This document shows positions 5,676 to 10,046 of a stretch of 59,862 nt of DNA, piece after piece. A program made the translations under genes and the position numbers. This DNA comes from Porticoccaceae bacterium (GTDB taxonomy: Bacteria > Pseudomonadota > Gammaproteobacteria > Pseudomonadales > Porticoccaceae): contig JAQWYJ010000018.1 of NCBI GenBank assembly GCA_029254005.1, positions 1 through 59,862 on the forward strand, read 5' to 3'. The stretch's first letter is position 1; every line of letters begins with the position of its first letter. Under the pieces are notes generated by a model. It saw only the letters and a list, made by a program, of their open reading frames with translations, had not been told where the DNA came from and did no database searches.

Positions 5676-6776
5676 GTGAAAAAAGATGATATTAAACTCG
5701 CCTTGATGTCGTTTATTGCCTTCTTAACATACGGTATTGCCGGTGTAAGCACTATTTTATTGATGAAACTCTTATCCTACTTTAGCCTTGGCCGAGATCT
5801 TGCGTCCTCTCATGGTATTAGTCTGTCTGATTCCTCACGATTAGGTGGCTTAGCCATTACCATTGTTGTTGGTTGCTATCTTTTAGGTATGTTACTGCTC
5901 ACACCCTATGTTCCTGGGGCGCTTAGATCCGACCAAAACTTCTACCTTTGGCTGGCGGTGGCAGTCTGCGCAGGTCTTGGTTTGGCTGAAGATATAAAAG
6001 CTGATTTCTTGACACCGGTACTCAGATTGGCATGCAAATTTCTGGTGTTTGGTGTTCTATTATTTTGTTGGCCAAACTTTGTACCTACTGAAATCGGTGT
6101 ACCGGGTATAGATGCACTTTTAAGTATTCCCTTAATTGCATGGACAGTAGTCACGATCTTCTGTGTTGGTTTTATAAATGCCTTTAATATGGCTGATGGG
6201 GCAAATGGTTTAATCCCAGGGATTTGTGTTGCCGCTTTTACTATTTTCTTTTTGGAGTATGGTCGGCCGACTGAGGGGCTATTTTTGTTTGCCTGTACGA
6301 TGTTTCTAATTTTCAATCTTATTTCTGGTTGGTTTTTCCTTGGCGATATGGGAAGCTATGGAATTGGCGCTATTATCCTTTGCTATGGCCTCAATGGTGT
6401 TGCAGTTGGCGACTTTTCTGCAGCCTTTATGGCGACGCTACTTGCCTATCCCTGCTTAGATTTTGTCGTCAGCATTGTCCGGCGGTTACGTTTAGGACGT
6501 TCGCCTTTTTCTGCAGATAATGATCATCTGCACAACAGGCTGCATTGGCAAATTAAACAGCTAGTAAAATCAAAAGTCCTAGCGAATTCTTTAACAGGCC
6601 TTATCATTAGTGGCTGCAGCGCTGGATTAACCCTTTATGCCTACAGCCTGAACTGGTTGCCTATCACTAGCAATCAGTGGATTTTTCTGTTTATTATTGA
6701 AGTTATTCTGTATGGCGTGGGCTTTAAACTAACCCAACAAGATAGAGAAACAACCCAGTATTCTGAGCCTGTCTAA
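5676..6776 (+). CDS. MraY/WecA-family polyprenyl-phosphate glycosyl-1-phosphate transferase
   Basis: Integral membrane enzyme of glycosyltransferase family 4, which moves a sugar-1-phosphate from a UDP-sugar to undecaprenyl phosphate to start O-antigen, exopolysaccharide or enterobacterial common antigen synthesis. The GTG at 5676 is chosen because CAGGAG lies 7 bases upstream. An earlier in-frame GTG at 5652 lacks such a site. The product has 366 residues and about 10 membrane segments. Family motifs are present: SRLGGLAI, GLAEDIKAD, NAFNMADGANGL, LGDMGSYGIG and the late DNDHLHNRL (HxHxR-type motif). No other polysaccharide genes are nearby, so the sugar and the pathway are unknown. It is not MraY itself, since no mur/mra cluster surrounds it. 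Confidence 0.88.
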   Translation: MKKDDIKLALMSFIAFLTYGIAGVSTILLMKLLSYFSLGRDLASSHGISLSDSSRLGGLAITIVVGCYLLGMLLLTPYVPGALRSDQNFYLWLAVAVCAGLGLAEDIKADFLTPVLRLACKFLVFGVLLFCWPNFVPTEIGVPGIDALLSIPLIAWTVVTIFCVGFINAFNMADGANGLIPGICVAAFTIFFLEYGRPTEGLFLFACTMFLIFNLISGWFFLGDMGSYGIGAIILCYGLNGVAVGDFSAAFMATLLAYPCLDFVVSIVRRLRLGRSPFSADNDHLHNRLHWQIKQLVKSKVLANSLTGLIISGCSAGLTLYAYSLNWLPITSNQWIFLFIIEVILYGVGFKLTQQDRETTQYSEPV

Positions 6777-6835
6777 CGAGCCAAATGGGCAGCGGTAAAC
6801 CTGATAAAAACTCGTATGTTACAACCTAGATCACA

Positions 6836-7789
6836 CTACTTCTTCCGTGCTTCTTGCTGTTCTACCAACGCTATAATTTTGCTCACGAGCCACTGATGAA
6901 TTGGAGATCCCTTGGTGCGCTGATGCTGAAGTAGAACCAAACTAATACTGTTTTCGTGGGGCAATTCATCGGGAAAAGGAATACTGTCAATCCGATGCAT
7001 AGACAAATCGTTAATTAAGCCTTTTTGTGTCGCCACCATGAGACAGTCACTACCACACACGGTTTCCATCGCCGTCATTAGCTGATTTGTCACCAACGCT
7101 TTTTCTCGTTTTAGACCCAACTCGCGCAGTGTTCTGTCAAAGCGAGCATCATTACGAGCACTCACTCGCTTTGATATCAAAAGATAATACTGCACAAAGG
7201 GGTAAGCTAATAGATCGATCAAACTTACATCCTTTTTAGTTGCTAGTGGGTGCCCATGTCTCATCCAGATAGATGGACTATAAGTAGCAAGCGATGTTGA
7301 GGTAATGTCCTCTGAAAGTGTTCGCTCTATGTCAATAGCAAAATCCAATGAACCCTCTGCTAAGTCGCCGCTAACTGACTCTATACCGCTAGAAACAGAA
7401 AGTACTAACCCAGGTGCTGCTTTTGTAACGACACGTGTTAGTTCAGAGACCAAAGAAATAGCGACAAATTCTGGAACTGCAATAGAGATTTCACCGGTGT
7501 ACGTTGCTGGATCAAACTCTCCCTCACTAACCATCTCTAGAATTCCATCAAGTAATTGCGGCAAGCGCGACTGCAAGTTTCGTGCTTTAGGCGTAGGAAC
7601 TAGCTCATTGCCCGTGCGAGTGAACAGTGGATCATCCAATTGATATCGAAGTCGCTGAAGAACTCTACTCATGGCTGGCTGGCTAATAAAGAGGCGCTCA
7701 GCAGCACGAGTAACACTTTTTTCTTCCAACAAAGCTTGCAAAGATACCAGTAAATTTAGATCCAAACGGCTAAGTTTCTGTAAGTTCAT
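6836..7789 (-). CDS. LysR-family transcriptional regulator
   Basis: The 317-residue product has the N-terminal LysR winged helix at about residues 10-65 (LDLNLLVSLQALLEEKSVTRAAERLFISQPAMSRVL... region) and a periplasmic-binding-like effector domain from about residue 90. The NahR/LinR-like opening LSRLDLNLL suggests the subgroup that often controls aromatic or nodulation genes, but the effector is unknown. It is divergent from a probable small RNA whose promoter starts about 85 bases away. A 9-bp inverted repeat (TTCCAATGC at 7797-7805, GCATTGGAA at 7842-7850) lies just upstream of the start and is a good candidate for its own binding region. LysR proteins typically control themselves and a divergent transcript, here the sRNA. 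Confidence 0.92.
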   Translation of the reverse strand: MNLQKLSRLDLNLLVSLQALLEEKSVTRAAERLFISQPAMSRVLQRLRYQLDDPLFTRTGNELVPTPKARNLQSRLPQLLDGILEMVSEGEFDPATYTGEISIAVPEFVAISLVSELTRVVTKAAPGLVLSVSSGIESVSGDLAEGSLDFAIDIERTLSEDITSTSLATYSPSIWMRHGHPLATKKDVSLIDLLAYPFVQYYLLISKRVSARNDARFDRTLRELGLKREKALVTNQLMTAMETVCGSDCLMVATQKGLINDLSMHRIDSIPFPDELPHENSISLVLLQHQRTKGSPIHQWLVSKIIALVEQQEARKK

Positions 7790-7796
7790 AAAATAG

Positions 7797-7850
7797 TTCC
7801 AATGCGTTATATCAAAATAGCATTTTTATTATGCAAAAAATGCATTGGAA
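7797..7850. promoter_or_regulatory. Inverted repeat in the LysR/sRNA divergent spacer
   Basis: TTCCAATGC (7797-7805) and GCATTGGAA (7842-7850) are exact reverse complements, separated by 36 AT-rich bases. The right arm is part of AAAAATGCATTGG, which carries the same AAATGCAT core found three times at 8053-8083. The repeat starts 7 bases upstream of the LysR start codon, so a bound dimer or tetramer would cover the LysR promoter and lie upstream of the sRNA -35 at 7873. Binding by the LysR protein is an inference from position. Confidence 0.45.
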
Positions 7851-7872
7851 TTATGTCACTGAAAACCGTAAA

Positions 7873-7900
7873 TTGAAACCATTGAGCAAGGTTGTAGAAT
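7873..7900 (+). promoter_or_regulatory. Promoter of the putative sRNA (TTGAAA-N16-TAGAAT)
   Basis: TTGAAA at 7873-7878 and TAGAAT at 7895-7900 are separated by 16 bases. Each differs from the sigma-70 consensus by one position. A start near 7907 is expected. The element points away from the LysR gene, and the first downstream structure is the strong terminator at 7993-8022. Confidence 0.55.
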
Positions 7901-7906
7901 AATCAC

Positions 7907-8022
7907 AATTTATAAGCAGTCTTCAACCTCGTTGCTCTCAAAGAATTCGCCCAGCGATCCAAACCCCTCTTAATCCTGCATAGGATTTTTCTAGGGACCT
8001 CCCAAGGAGGTCCCTTTTTTTT
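7907..8022 (+). ncRNA. Putative small RNA of about 116 nt between LysR and crp
   Basis: A near-consensus promoter (7873-7900) and a textbook intrinsic terminator (7993-8022) bracket about 116 bases with no credible reading frame. The only frame in the area, 23 codons from 7831, starts upstream of the predicted 5' end and lacks a ribosome site. The body has a short hairpin ATCCT-GCAT-AGGAT and an apparently unpaired C/U-rich stretch (AAACCCCTCTTAATCC) that could pair with purine-rich ribosome-binding sites. The terminator stem itself contains CCTCC. I do not recognise a known family: the repeated GGA loops of RsmY/Z and the CA motifs of CrcZ are absent. Its position beside a LysR gene suggests control by that protein. 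Confidence 0.5.
7993..8022 (+). terminator. Rho-independent terminator (plus strand)
   Basis: A 10-bp GC-rich stem (AGGGACCTCC / GGAGGTCCCT) with a CAA loop is followed directly by eight T residues (8015-8022). No long plus-strand gene reads into it: the nearest one upstream ends at 6776, with the opposing LysR gene between. It therefore marks the end of a short transcript that starts within the LysR-crp spacer. Confidence 0.9.
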
Positions 8023-8052
8023 AGATAAAAAAACCTCTTAAAGGTTATGCCG

Positions 8053-8083
8053 TAAATGCATGATATAAATGCATTAAATGCAT
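8053..8083 (+). repeat. Three TAAATGCAT boxes upstream of a microprotein gene
   Basis: TAAATGCAT occurs at 8053-8061, 8066-8074 and 8075-8083. The last two abut. Each contains the palindrome ATGCAT. They lie directly upstream of, and touching, the -35 of the promoter at 8083-8112, the usual place for an activator or repressor. The core recurs once in the LysR spacer (7837-7844). The regulator is unknown. LysR at 6836 is the nearest candidate. Confidence 0.5.
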
Positions 8084-8112
8084 TAGACTTATGGGTCTCG
8101 AGTTTCTATAGT
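8083..8112 (+). promoter_or_regulatory. Promoter of the 37-aa microprotein gene (TTAGAC-N18-TATAGT)
   Basis: TTAGAC at 8083-8088 and TATAGT at 8107-8112 are spaced by 18 bases. The first base overlaps the third ATGCAT box. A start near 8119 gives a leader of about 44 bases with the ribosome site AAAAAGGAAAAAG. Confidence 0.5.
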
Positions 8113-8162
8113 GCGCGCATCAAAGCAATGAGGCTTTGATTGAGTTTAAAAAGGAAAAAGAA

Positions 8163-8276
8163 ATGACACTGGTTTATGTATTACTAGGCTTTGCCGGCCT
8201 AACTGGAGCCGCTATTGCAAAAGATGATTTCGACAAAATGCGAGCACCAAACAAAGAAGTAGCTAACAAAGCATAA
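8163..8276 (+). CDS. Putative 37-residue membrane microprotein
   Basis: The ATG at 8163 follows a good ribosome site (AAGGA, about 9 bases upstream) and opens a 37-codon frame. The product has one hydrophobic segment at residues 2-19 (VYVLLGFAGLTGAAIA) and a charged tail (KDDFDKMRAP...). It has its own promoter, the triple ATGCAT box upstream and a hairpin at 8295-8323 downstream, so it looks like a complete single-gene unit. The AIA-K junction could also be a signal-peptidase site, leaving an 18-residue secreted peptide. No family is recognised. Support comes from the surrounding signals rather than from homology. Confidence 0.5.
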   Translation: MTLVYVLLGFAGLTGAAIAKDDFDKMRAPNKEVANKA

Positions 8277-8294
8277 GTTAACACAAAACGTCTA

Positions 8295-8323
8295 AGGCTT
8301 GTTAAGTGCTGATTAACAAGCCT
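8295..8323 (+). terminator. Hairpin after the microprotein gene
   Basis: A perfect 11-bp stem (AGGCTTGTTAA / TTAACAAGCCT) with a 7-base loop begins 19 bases after the microprotein stop codon. It lacks a T tract, so it may act as a 3'-end stabiliser or Rho-assisted end rather than a classic terminator. Confidence 0.5.
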
Positions 8324-8594
8324 AAAACCTCTCTCCAATGGTACCCTACCATCAACTCTCTACCGACTATCTGCAGCTTGCTAACAGCCGCTGAACTGAA
8401 TTTTGGGTAGTTTATTATTCAACTGACAAGATATATTTTGTTTGTAATGACAGTTGATCTAATAAATATATACACTTTCTAACAATTACACGGTACTATT
8501 TCTCATTAACAAAGTGATTCAGGTCTAATTTTATAGAGAATTGAGCCACATTTTCCCTAACGACATTGCCCTATCAATAACTGGTCAATCATAG

Positions 8595-9203
8595 ATGAAA
8601 AATATAGAAGTTTTTTTGGCCCAGTGTCATCGTAGGCGTTATCCTGCCAAAAGTACCATTATTTATGCGGGAGACAAAGCTGACGTTCTTTACTATATCG
8701 TCAAAGGCACAGTCAGTGTACTTGTTGAAGATGAGGCTGACCAAAAAGAAATGATTGTTGCCTATTTAAATGAAGGTGAATTTTTTGGTGAAATGGGACT
8801 TTTTGAAGAGGGCATCAGAAGTGCTTGGATAAAAGCCAAGACCGATTGTGAAATTAGCGAAATAACCTACTCAAAATTTACTGAACTGTATGAGAACAAC
8901 CCAAACTTTCTGTTTGCCATCACCCGACAGATGGCTTCGCGCCTACGCGAAACCACACAGAAAGCAAGTGATCTTGCATTTTTAGATGTTACAGGGCGTG
9001 TTGCCAGCGCACTTATAGATCTTAGCAAACAGCCCGATGCTATGAGTCATCCTGATGGCATGCAAATTAAAATAACCCGCCAAGAAATCGGCCGGATCGT
9101 AGTTTGTTCTCGTGAAATGGTAGGTCGCGTTCTAAAAGAACTTGAAAGTAAAGGATTGATCTCAGTGTCAGGAAAAACAATGGTAGTTTTTGGAACCCGC
9201 TAA
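8595..9203 (+). CDS. crp: cAMP receptor protein Crp/Vfr-like
   Basis: Global cAMP-responsive regulator. The 202-residue product aligns over its length with E. coli CRP (210) and Pseudomonas Vfr (214). Cyclic-nucleotide pocket: GEMGLFEEG (65-73) and RSAW (75-78). Dimer helix: about 105-138. Winged helix-turn-helix: about 160-185, with the Vfr-like end [10 protein letters not shown]. One oddity is IVVCSRE at 168-174, where E. coli and Vfr have IVGCSRE. The turn glycine of the HTH is Val170. The ribosome site is weak (AATCATAG before ATG). Its position beside trpC matches vfr in Pseudomonas. cAMP binding is expected from conserved residues; DNA specificity may be changed. Confidence 0.95.
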
Positions 9204-9245
9204 TATCTTACGCAATAATATTTAGTGACTACCAGATAAATACCG

Positions 9246-10046
9246 TCAAACAAACATCTCTTTTAGCTTTAATCCTGGATCACTGCTGCGCATAAACGCT
9301 TCACCGACTAAGAAGCCATTGACGCCGTTTTTACGCATGTCATTGACATCTGCGCGACTGAGAATACCGCTCTCAGTGATGACAGTTGTTGTAGCGGGAA
9401 TTTGCCCTAATAATCTATAGGTATTCTCCACAGAAACCTCAAACGAATGTAGATTACGATTGTTAATTCCAATCAATGGATTACTCAATGCTAATGCTCG
9501 GTCTAATTCGATTTGATCATGCACCTCAATTAACACATCCATACCAAGCGAAATCGCTAACTGATGAAGACTAACCAAGGTTGTTTGGTCTAAAGCAGAA
9601 ACAATCAACAAAATACAGTCTGCTGCCATAGCGCGTGCTGCATACACTTGATACTCGTCAATAATAAAGTCTTTGCGTATCACCGGCAACTCACAGGCAT
9701 TTCTGGCGGCCATTAAATACTCATCGGATCCTTGGAAAAAATCCACATCTGTAAGAACAGATAAGCAACAAGCACCTCCTAACTGGTAGCTTTTAGCTAT
9801 CGAAACAGGGTCAAAGTTTTCACAAATAACGCCTTTACTGGGTGATGCTTTTTTAATTTCGGCAATCACTGCCGCTTCGCCTGCATGAATCTTAGTAGTA
9901 ATCGCCTTAGTAAATCCTCTTGGTGCTGAAGCATTATCAATCTGCTCTAGTAATACCTTAATTGGCTTGTTGATTCGGCCTAAACGAATTTCTTCATGCT
10001 TACGAAGTAAGATATTTTTTAATATGGTTGGTACTTCAACGCGCAT
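9246..10046 (-). CDS. trpC: Indole-3-glycerol phosphate synthase
   Basis: Closes the indole ring in tryptophan synthesis (CdRP to indole-3-glycerol phosphate). The 266-residue (beta/alpha)8 barrel shows [10 protein letters not shown] (63-72, catalytic lysine), [17 protein letters not shown] and TESGI. It is the last gene of the minus-strand trpEGDC cluster and follows trpD by 10 bases. It is not fused to TrpF, as is normal outside the enteric bacteria. It converges on crp with only 42 bases between the stop codons and no hairpin there. Confidence 0.97.

Follow-up and report, generated by a model that had tools for sequence, protein, structure and literature searches.

A conserved small RNA (sRNA) family, so far uncatalogued, is encoded with a companion microprotein and probably with its own regulator in the stretch of Porticoccaceae DNA analysed here, which is 59,862 nucleotides long and is referred to below as the window. 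That the small RNA exists and belongs to a larger arrangement is very probable, and the family is very probably functional. Promoter box, RNA core, secondary structure and microprotein gene are conserved together in the genomes compared. A bacterium most likely of the oceanic SAR92 group appears to encode a regulatory sRNA that is absent from the RNA catalogue searched (Rfam). In the open-access titles and abstracts searched, a scope that leaves out most subscription papers, no regulatory sRNA of SAR92 or the Porticoccaceae was found, and no title in the same literature describes this locus. The features concerned are the following.

6836–7789, − strand: LysR-type regulator of 317 amino acids (HTH_1 and LysR_substrate domains), encoded divergently from the cassette, whose two units it probably activates
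7830–7855, + strand: LysR-type box of the sRNA unit, including ATGCATTGGAATTATG at 7840–7855; the same box precedes the units of relatives
7869–7874, + strand: predicted −10 element of the sRNA, TAAATT, 13 bases 3′ of the box
7881–8022, + strand: predicted sRNA-A, about 142 nt, its start deduced from the −10 element; kept in relatives
7963–7971, + strand: exposed C/U-rich patch ACCCCTCTT, the proposed pairing site, inside ACCCCTCTTAATCCT (7963–7977)
7972–7987, + strand: hairpin AATCCT-GCAT-AGGATT; both partners of each of its six pairs vary within the alignment
7993–8022, + strand: intrinsic terminator, a 10-pair stem closing a three-base loop (7993–8015) and then a T run that ends at 8022
8068–8093, + strand: LysR-type box in front of the microprotein unit; its exact core lies at 8078–8093
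8107–8112, + strand: predicted −10 element of the microprotein unit, TATAGT, with the same 13-base spacing
8163–8276, + strand: microprotein gene (37 codons, 37 amino acids) with a hydrophobic N-terminal part, between sRNA and crp; overlooked in the earlier note
8595–9203, + strand: CRP-type regulator (CRP equivalog, above cut-off), the downstream neighbour

The explanation that we favour, and regard as likely, is that a largely dedicated LysR-type protein activates dual-function or sibling sRNAs resembling VcdRP and SgrS/SgrT, whose CCCC patch pairs with mRNAs. The regulator would respond to a small molecule and, by way of a box common to both, would activate two promoters close by; transcription from the first would yield the sRNA of about 142 nt, and the second would drive expression of the hydrophobic microprotein of 37 amino acids. 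The predicted RNA begins with a stem and carries the exposed ACCCCUCUU patch, then a short hairpin and lastly the terminator with its U tail. Its action would most likely be in trans: the CCCC-containing patch would pair with G-rich sequence around the translation starts of several mRNAs, probably aided by Hfq, by analogy with VcdR of Vibrio cholerae, while the microprotein would probably modulate a partner in the membrane as part of that response. Many relatives combine box, ORF, C-rich patch, hairpin and terminator in one unit, and the window would accordingly hold the split form of a dual-function RNA. If this is true, the occurrence of RNA and microprotein both fused and separated within one genus bears on the origin of dual-function RNAs. 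Since regulator, box, RNA patch and microprotein are all mapped to the base, the system would be directly testable if our reading is right.

Conservation and structure of the RNA

The earlier note had proposed an unnamed small RNA with an unpaired C/U-rich patch between a LysR gene and crp, and conservation, covariation and genomic context all support that proposal; transcription is presumed. BLAST with positions 7860–8022 found the element in 52 of 193 relative genomes, namely 47 of the 50 genomes of g1 (our label for the window's genus, own genome included), three of g13 and two of g10. A covariance model built from 49 copies extended this to 67 of 112 genomes of the family (g1, 48/50; g13, 3/3; g10, 11/14; g6, 2/2; g4, three); alignment A1 holds 49 of 54 copies, five having been left out and one N-cut copy (L042) dropped beforehand, and one locus sample comprised 40 of the 47 loci from g1 and g13, together with 17 from a further set of 20 that was reduced by three g4 loci. 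The two g1 genomes that gave no match are 71% and 73% complete, and their assemblies lack the LysR gene as well. Conservation of the element in 48 of 50 g1 genomes excludes an origin by chance. The three g4 matches of the model (G095, G101 and G107; L118, L119 and L121) were rejected as false, as they follow a longer open frame and lack ACCCC.

The 15-mer ACCCCTCTTAATCCT occurs exactly in 45 of the 50 g1 genomes (28/30 among the better ones; reversed control, 0), and two of the five genomes that miss it, G046 and G036, carry near-identical variants (L215 and L216). When 84,980 species, each represented by a single genome, were scanned for ACCCCTCTTAATCCT-N(3–9)-AGGATT, 46 stretches were found, perhaps not including the window's own record, all labelled as SAR92, Porticoccaceae, HTCC2207, MOLA455, uncultured Cellvibrionales or Pseudomonadales; named carrier strains include HTCC2207, MOLA455, H921 and H231. 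As this pattern fixes the core as invariant in these stretches (L032–L077), the conservation figures rest on BLAST, the covariance model and the 15-mer count. The order was sampled with 390 genomes, of which 11 match the sRNA at E ≤ 1e-4: nine of g1, one of g10 and G469, a genome assigned to another family. The latter carries an sRNA and microprotein unit (C43:7540–7701; L165 and L169) that scores like that of G058; spread to another family was considered and set aside, the contig being taken instead as probably misbinned.

At the curated gathering scores, Rfam 15 gave no match in the window or in six relative loci, and with a loose threshold the best hit was sbrA (19.2 bits as compared with 45). 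The earlier note had described an RNA that lacks the features of RsmY/Z and CrcZ; no matching family, with RsmY, RsmZ, CrcZ and SgrS included, was found in Rfam.

Compensatory changes, which the earlier note had suggested looking for, were found among relatives in the hairpins, the terminator stem included. The two hairpins covary, with changes on both sides at 10 of 11 pairs (90 distinct rows), and 98.6% of the cells in these rows pair, figures to be read with the nature of alignment A3 in mind, which is model-fitted, holds sRNA-B copies and leans towards the model's structure; none of 500 shuffles reached the pairing and covariation values, and pairing falls to 34–66% when the partners are slid.

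The microprotein and the arrangement of the units

The codon changes of the microprotein gene indicate purifying selection, 68% of the differences being synonymous as against 25% expected (33 distinct sequences, the pairs of which are non-independent), and 15 residues are invariant in 16 sequences. The protein has no match in Pfam or NCBIfam; a hydrophobic beginning and a charged end make it a candidate small membrane protein. A profile detects it in 14 of the 390 order genomes (nine of g1, two of g6, one each of g10 and g11, and G469). Past the microprotein gene the window also shows a strong hairpin, AGGCTTGTTAA/TTAACAAGCCT, at 8295–8323, which lacks a T run.

Among the 47 loci of g1 and g13, classed by pattern, the microprotein is fused to the sRNA core in 28 and in others forms a separate unit, as it does in the window. 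A sibling, sRNA-B, lies downstream of sRNA-A in 29 of the 47 and is absent from the window; as six of the loci end within 700 bases, these unit counts are lower bounds. Judged by eye, sRNA-B has its own LysR-type box, one or two ACCCC patches, a hairpin of the CTTTG/CAAAG type and a terminator of the GGAGCC/GGCTCC type; examples are found at L052:4343–4530 and L054:5099–5260. In g10, units occur on several contigs, with microproteins that are window-like (L103, L108 and L113) or of another type. At L104–L106 and L114–L116 of the same genus, a small ORF of the other type, such as MEIVYGAMIFSCVLLAAIATQDF, stands before the same sRNA core. A g11 locus (L164:1040–2300) has four tandem units beside LysR, each with a box-like site and a microprotein of 28–32 amino acids containing GSAIAxDDL, and a C-rich leader precedes the terminator in three of the four.

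The frequent fusion and the tandem array of g11 could also mean that the element is a mere 3′ UTR and terminator of the microprotein unit, that the copy in the window has lost its ORF and that function resides in the microprotein. The earlier note had named, as evidence against the RNA, a terminator that follows a coding gene in relatives that do not conserve the promoter and the C/U-rich patch. In many relatives it does follow one, but the gene is the unit's own microprotein of 36–40 amino acids, which points to an RNA of the dual-function or 3′-UTR type. A mere 3′ UTR nevertheless appears unlikely: sRNA-only units retain box, patch and hairpin across many species (23 sites including the window, one of which, L076, is so classed though a microprotein is present and it is actually fused), g13 retains the element with no recognised microprotein, and a plain terminator would have no need of the 15-mer or of a further covarying hairpin.

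The exposed patch and comparison with known systems

The C/U-rich patch described in the earlier note is unpaired in the predicted fold, the mean unpaired probability of ACCCCTCTT in the window RNA being 0.96. Over 38 predicted transcripts the mean is 0.80 for the patch and 0.47 for the whole transcripts, which served as the only reference. The patch is, however, less exposed in fused units (0.53–0.95, others ranging from 0.55 to 1.00), which speaks against the pairing model. A conserved exposed patch and a U-tailed terminator, as seen in Hfq-dependent trans-acting sRNAs of the general kind, are both present.

Pairing through such a patch has a parallel in VcdRP, a dual-function RNA of V. cholerae. 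As reported, it comprises, in this order, an ORF of 29 amino acids, four conserved cytosines and a rho-independent terminator, and is repressed by CRP; the four cytosines are required for regulation by VcdR, pair with translation-start regions and need Hfq (PMC8672173). The likeness is one of layout: in the 28 fused loci a CCCC patch and then a terminator come after a small ORF, putatively on one transcript, an arrangement that is split in the window. In contrast to the CRP control of VcdRP, the putative controller here is the divergent LysR-type gene, and, again unlike VcdRP, the units form tandem and dispersed sibling arrays, ORF and RNA being separate in the window.

The second comparison is with SgrR–SgrS/SgrT of enteric bacteria, in which, as reported, a regulator gene adjoins a dual-function RNA with an ORF of 43 amino acids, a pairing region and a terminator, the ORF being missing in some species (PMC4021124). 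Both systems have their own regulator adjoining the RNA unit and an ORF before the pairing region and terminator, but here the regulator is of the LysR type, the units are arrayed and the patch is C-rich. SgrR is a regulator of a type other than LysR, and an SgrR-type protein was discarded as a candidate, the neighbour being LysR-type by its domains. Glucose-phosphate stress belongs to the SgrS system as there described and has no demonstrated counterpart here.

In Rhodobacter sphaeroides, as reported, the homologous sRNAs CcsR1–4 come from the 3′ UTR of a small-protein gene, ccaF1, which encodes a DUF1127 RNA-binding protein (PMC8625941). Several homologous sRNAs linked to a small-protein gene, and putatively made from its 3′ UTR, are found here too; unlike those of CcsR1–4, however, the units have their own promoter box, and the microprotein of 37 amino acids has no Pfam match, DUF1127 included.

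Alternatively, the RNA may titrate a protein, either one of the CsrA/RsmA type or a C-tract binder, rather than pair with mRNAs. The conserved patch is short and C-rich, several copies per genome would fit a sponge, and the window RNA contains two GGA triplets. Of these triplets, however, one is base-paired within a hairpin arm and one falls in a species-variable part of the terminator, and no match to an Rfam family, CsrB included along with RsmY and RsmZ, was obtained; titration therefore appears very unlikely.

Searches for targets of the favoured pairing mechanism were negative. In the window's own genome, AGAGGGG-N(2–13)-ATG occurs at 15 sites as against 11 in the reversed control, and none of the 15 begins a long ORF except within an open frame that is longer still. 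Near ATG codons of 20 genomes the complement of the patch was found 53 times, as compared with 38 in the control, at least six of the 53 lying opposite sRNA copies. Neither count shows a clear enrichment, which speaks against the pairing model. Twenty of the 53 were inspected, and seven precede plausible gene starts (L279, L281–L284, L290 and L295). The sole recurrence among the seven is a Porin_O_P gene (L279 and L284, from two close genomes) with AAGAGGGGT as ribosome site. This porin is present in eight of 48 genomes, the window's own not among them, and the remaining six do not retain AAGAGGGGT; it is a possible target but not a conserved one. Simple seed searches thus found no target kept beyond two close genomes, and pairing with ribosome sites is therefore proposed from the exposed patch and the example of VcdR (PMC8672173).

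Predicted promoter and ends of the RNA

Ninety-one box sites, defined on the sRNA strand as ATGCATT followed six bases later by AT, were compared. TAnnnT lies 13 bases past the box in 85 of them, each of the other offsets from 3 to 30 giving at most 15. The position of the box is the usual one for binding by LysR-type activators. The exact box core occurs at two sites in the window's own genome, both in the cassette; box-like sites with one or two mismatches exceed the reversed control (93 versus 49 in all), and the regulon may thus extend beyond the cassette.

The conserved −10 element at 7869–7874 implies an RNA of about 142 nt rather than the 116 or so bases proposed earlier: the 3′ end at 8022 stands, but the 5′ end does not, the conserved promoter lying some 25 bases upstream. 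The earlier note had derived its 5′ end from a promoter, TTGAAA-N16-TAGAAT (7873–7900), and had named lack of promoter conservation among the signs against the RNA. Of those signs only this one was seen: that promoter is not conserved, but another is. TAGAAT is found at the matching offset in none of the 22 other units classed as sRNA-only, and the closest relative, L036, has ACGAAA there. A start at 7873–7900 independent of the LysR box is the most improbable of the alternatives: although the sequence matches 10 of 12 consensus bases and TAnnnT is found at the −10 offset in four of the 22 units (L045, L051, L074 and L077), it is one of seven promoter-like sites where shuffles average 5.9, and the longer RNA would lose its 5′ stem; the promoter was rejected on its frequency in shuffles and the non-conservation of TAGAAT. 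In fold predictions, the 5′ part of the longer RNA (start near 7881) forms this stem, and the z-score is −4.47 for 7883–8022 as compared with −2.92 for 7907–8022.

The remaining elements of the earlier description were borne out. The terminator is as described and is the strongest terminator-like site within 6700–9300. No plus-strand gene enters it, upstream sequence holding the minus-strand LysR gene and short antisense plus-strand frames only. The LysR gene is divergent and a global regulator lies downstream; nothing was found that indicates that the CRP-type gene (8595–9203) is a member of the cassette.

The LysR-type regulator beyond the genus

An orthologue of the regulator was found at E ≤ 1e-70 in 103 of the 112 family genomes, with one match each and in all 14 genera. 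In 19 genomes from ten genera besides g1, g6, g10 and g13, a terminator with a C-rich leader lies beside LysR in 18, under a rule (CCCC or CTCCCT within 40 bases) that was set after the loci had been inspected; 14 of the loci meet CCCC and four only CTCCCT, and a rough box pattern is present in eight of the 19. The control, which is small (0/5), gave 0/1 in the rest of the window and 0/4 on the opposite strand. The g4 unit that adjoins LysR (L189, L193, L194, L196 and L203) is in a different place from the rejected g4 model matches.

A wider proposal, which we put forward tentatively and hold to be slightly less probable than its contrary, is that these loci represent an undescribed, old and widespread system of the Pseudomonadales, reaching beyond the family, in which the main targets of the LysR-type protein would be arrays of one-promoter units, each with a gene for a membrane microprotein, for an sRNA with a CCCC seed, or for the two together. 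Within such a system, units would be duplicated, fused, split and dispersed across the genome. At E ≤ 1e-55, LysR relatives were found in 28 of 381 order genomes, 11 of them outside the family. By eye, seven of these 11 (L236, L239, L240 and L242–L245) have a cassette-like unit, in which a box-like site is accompanied by either a microprotein or a non-coding unit; the other four have none. In other families of the order, microproteins of 28–37 amino acids are encoded divergently from the LysR relatives at L240, L242, L243 and L245; those of L240 and L243 are nearly identical, and L242 has a long C run before the terminator.
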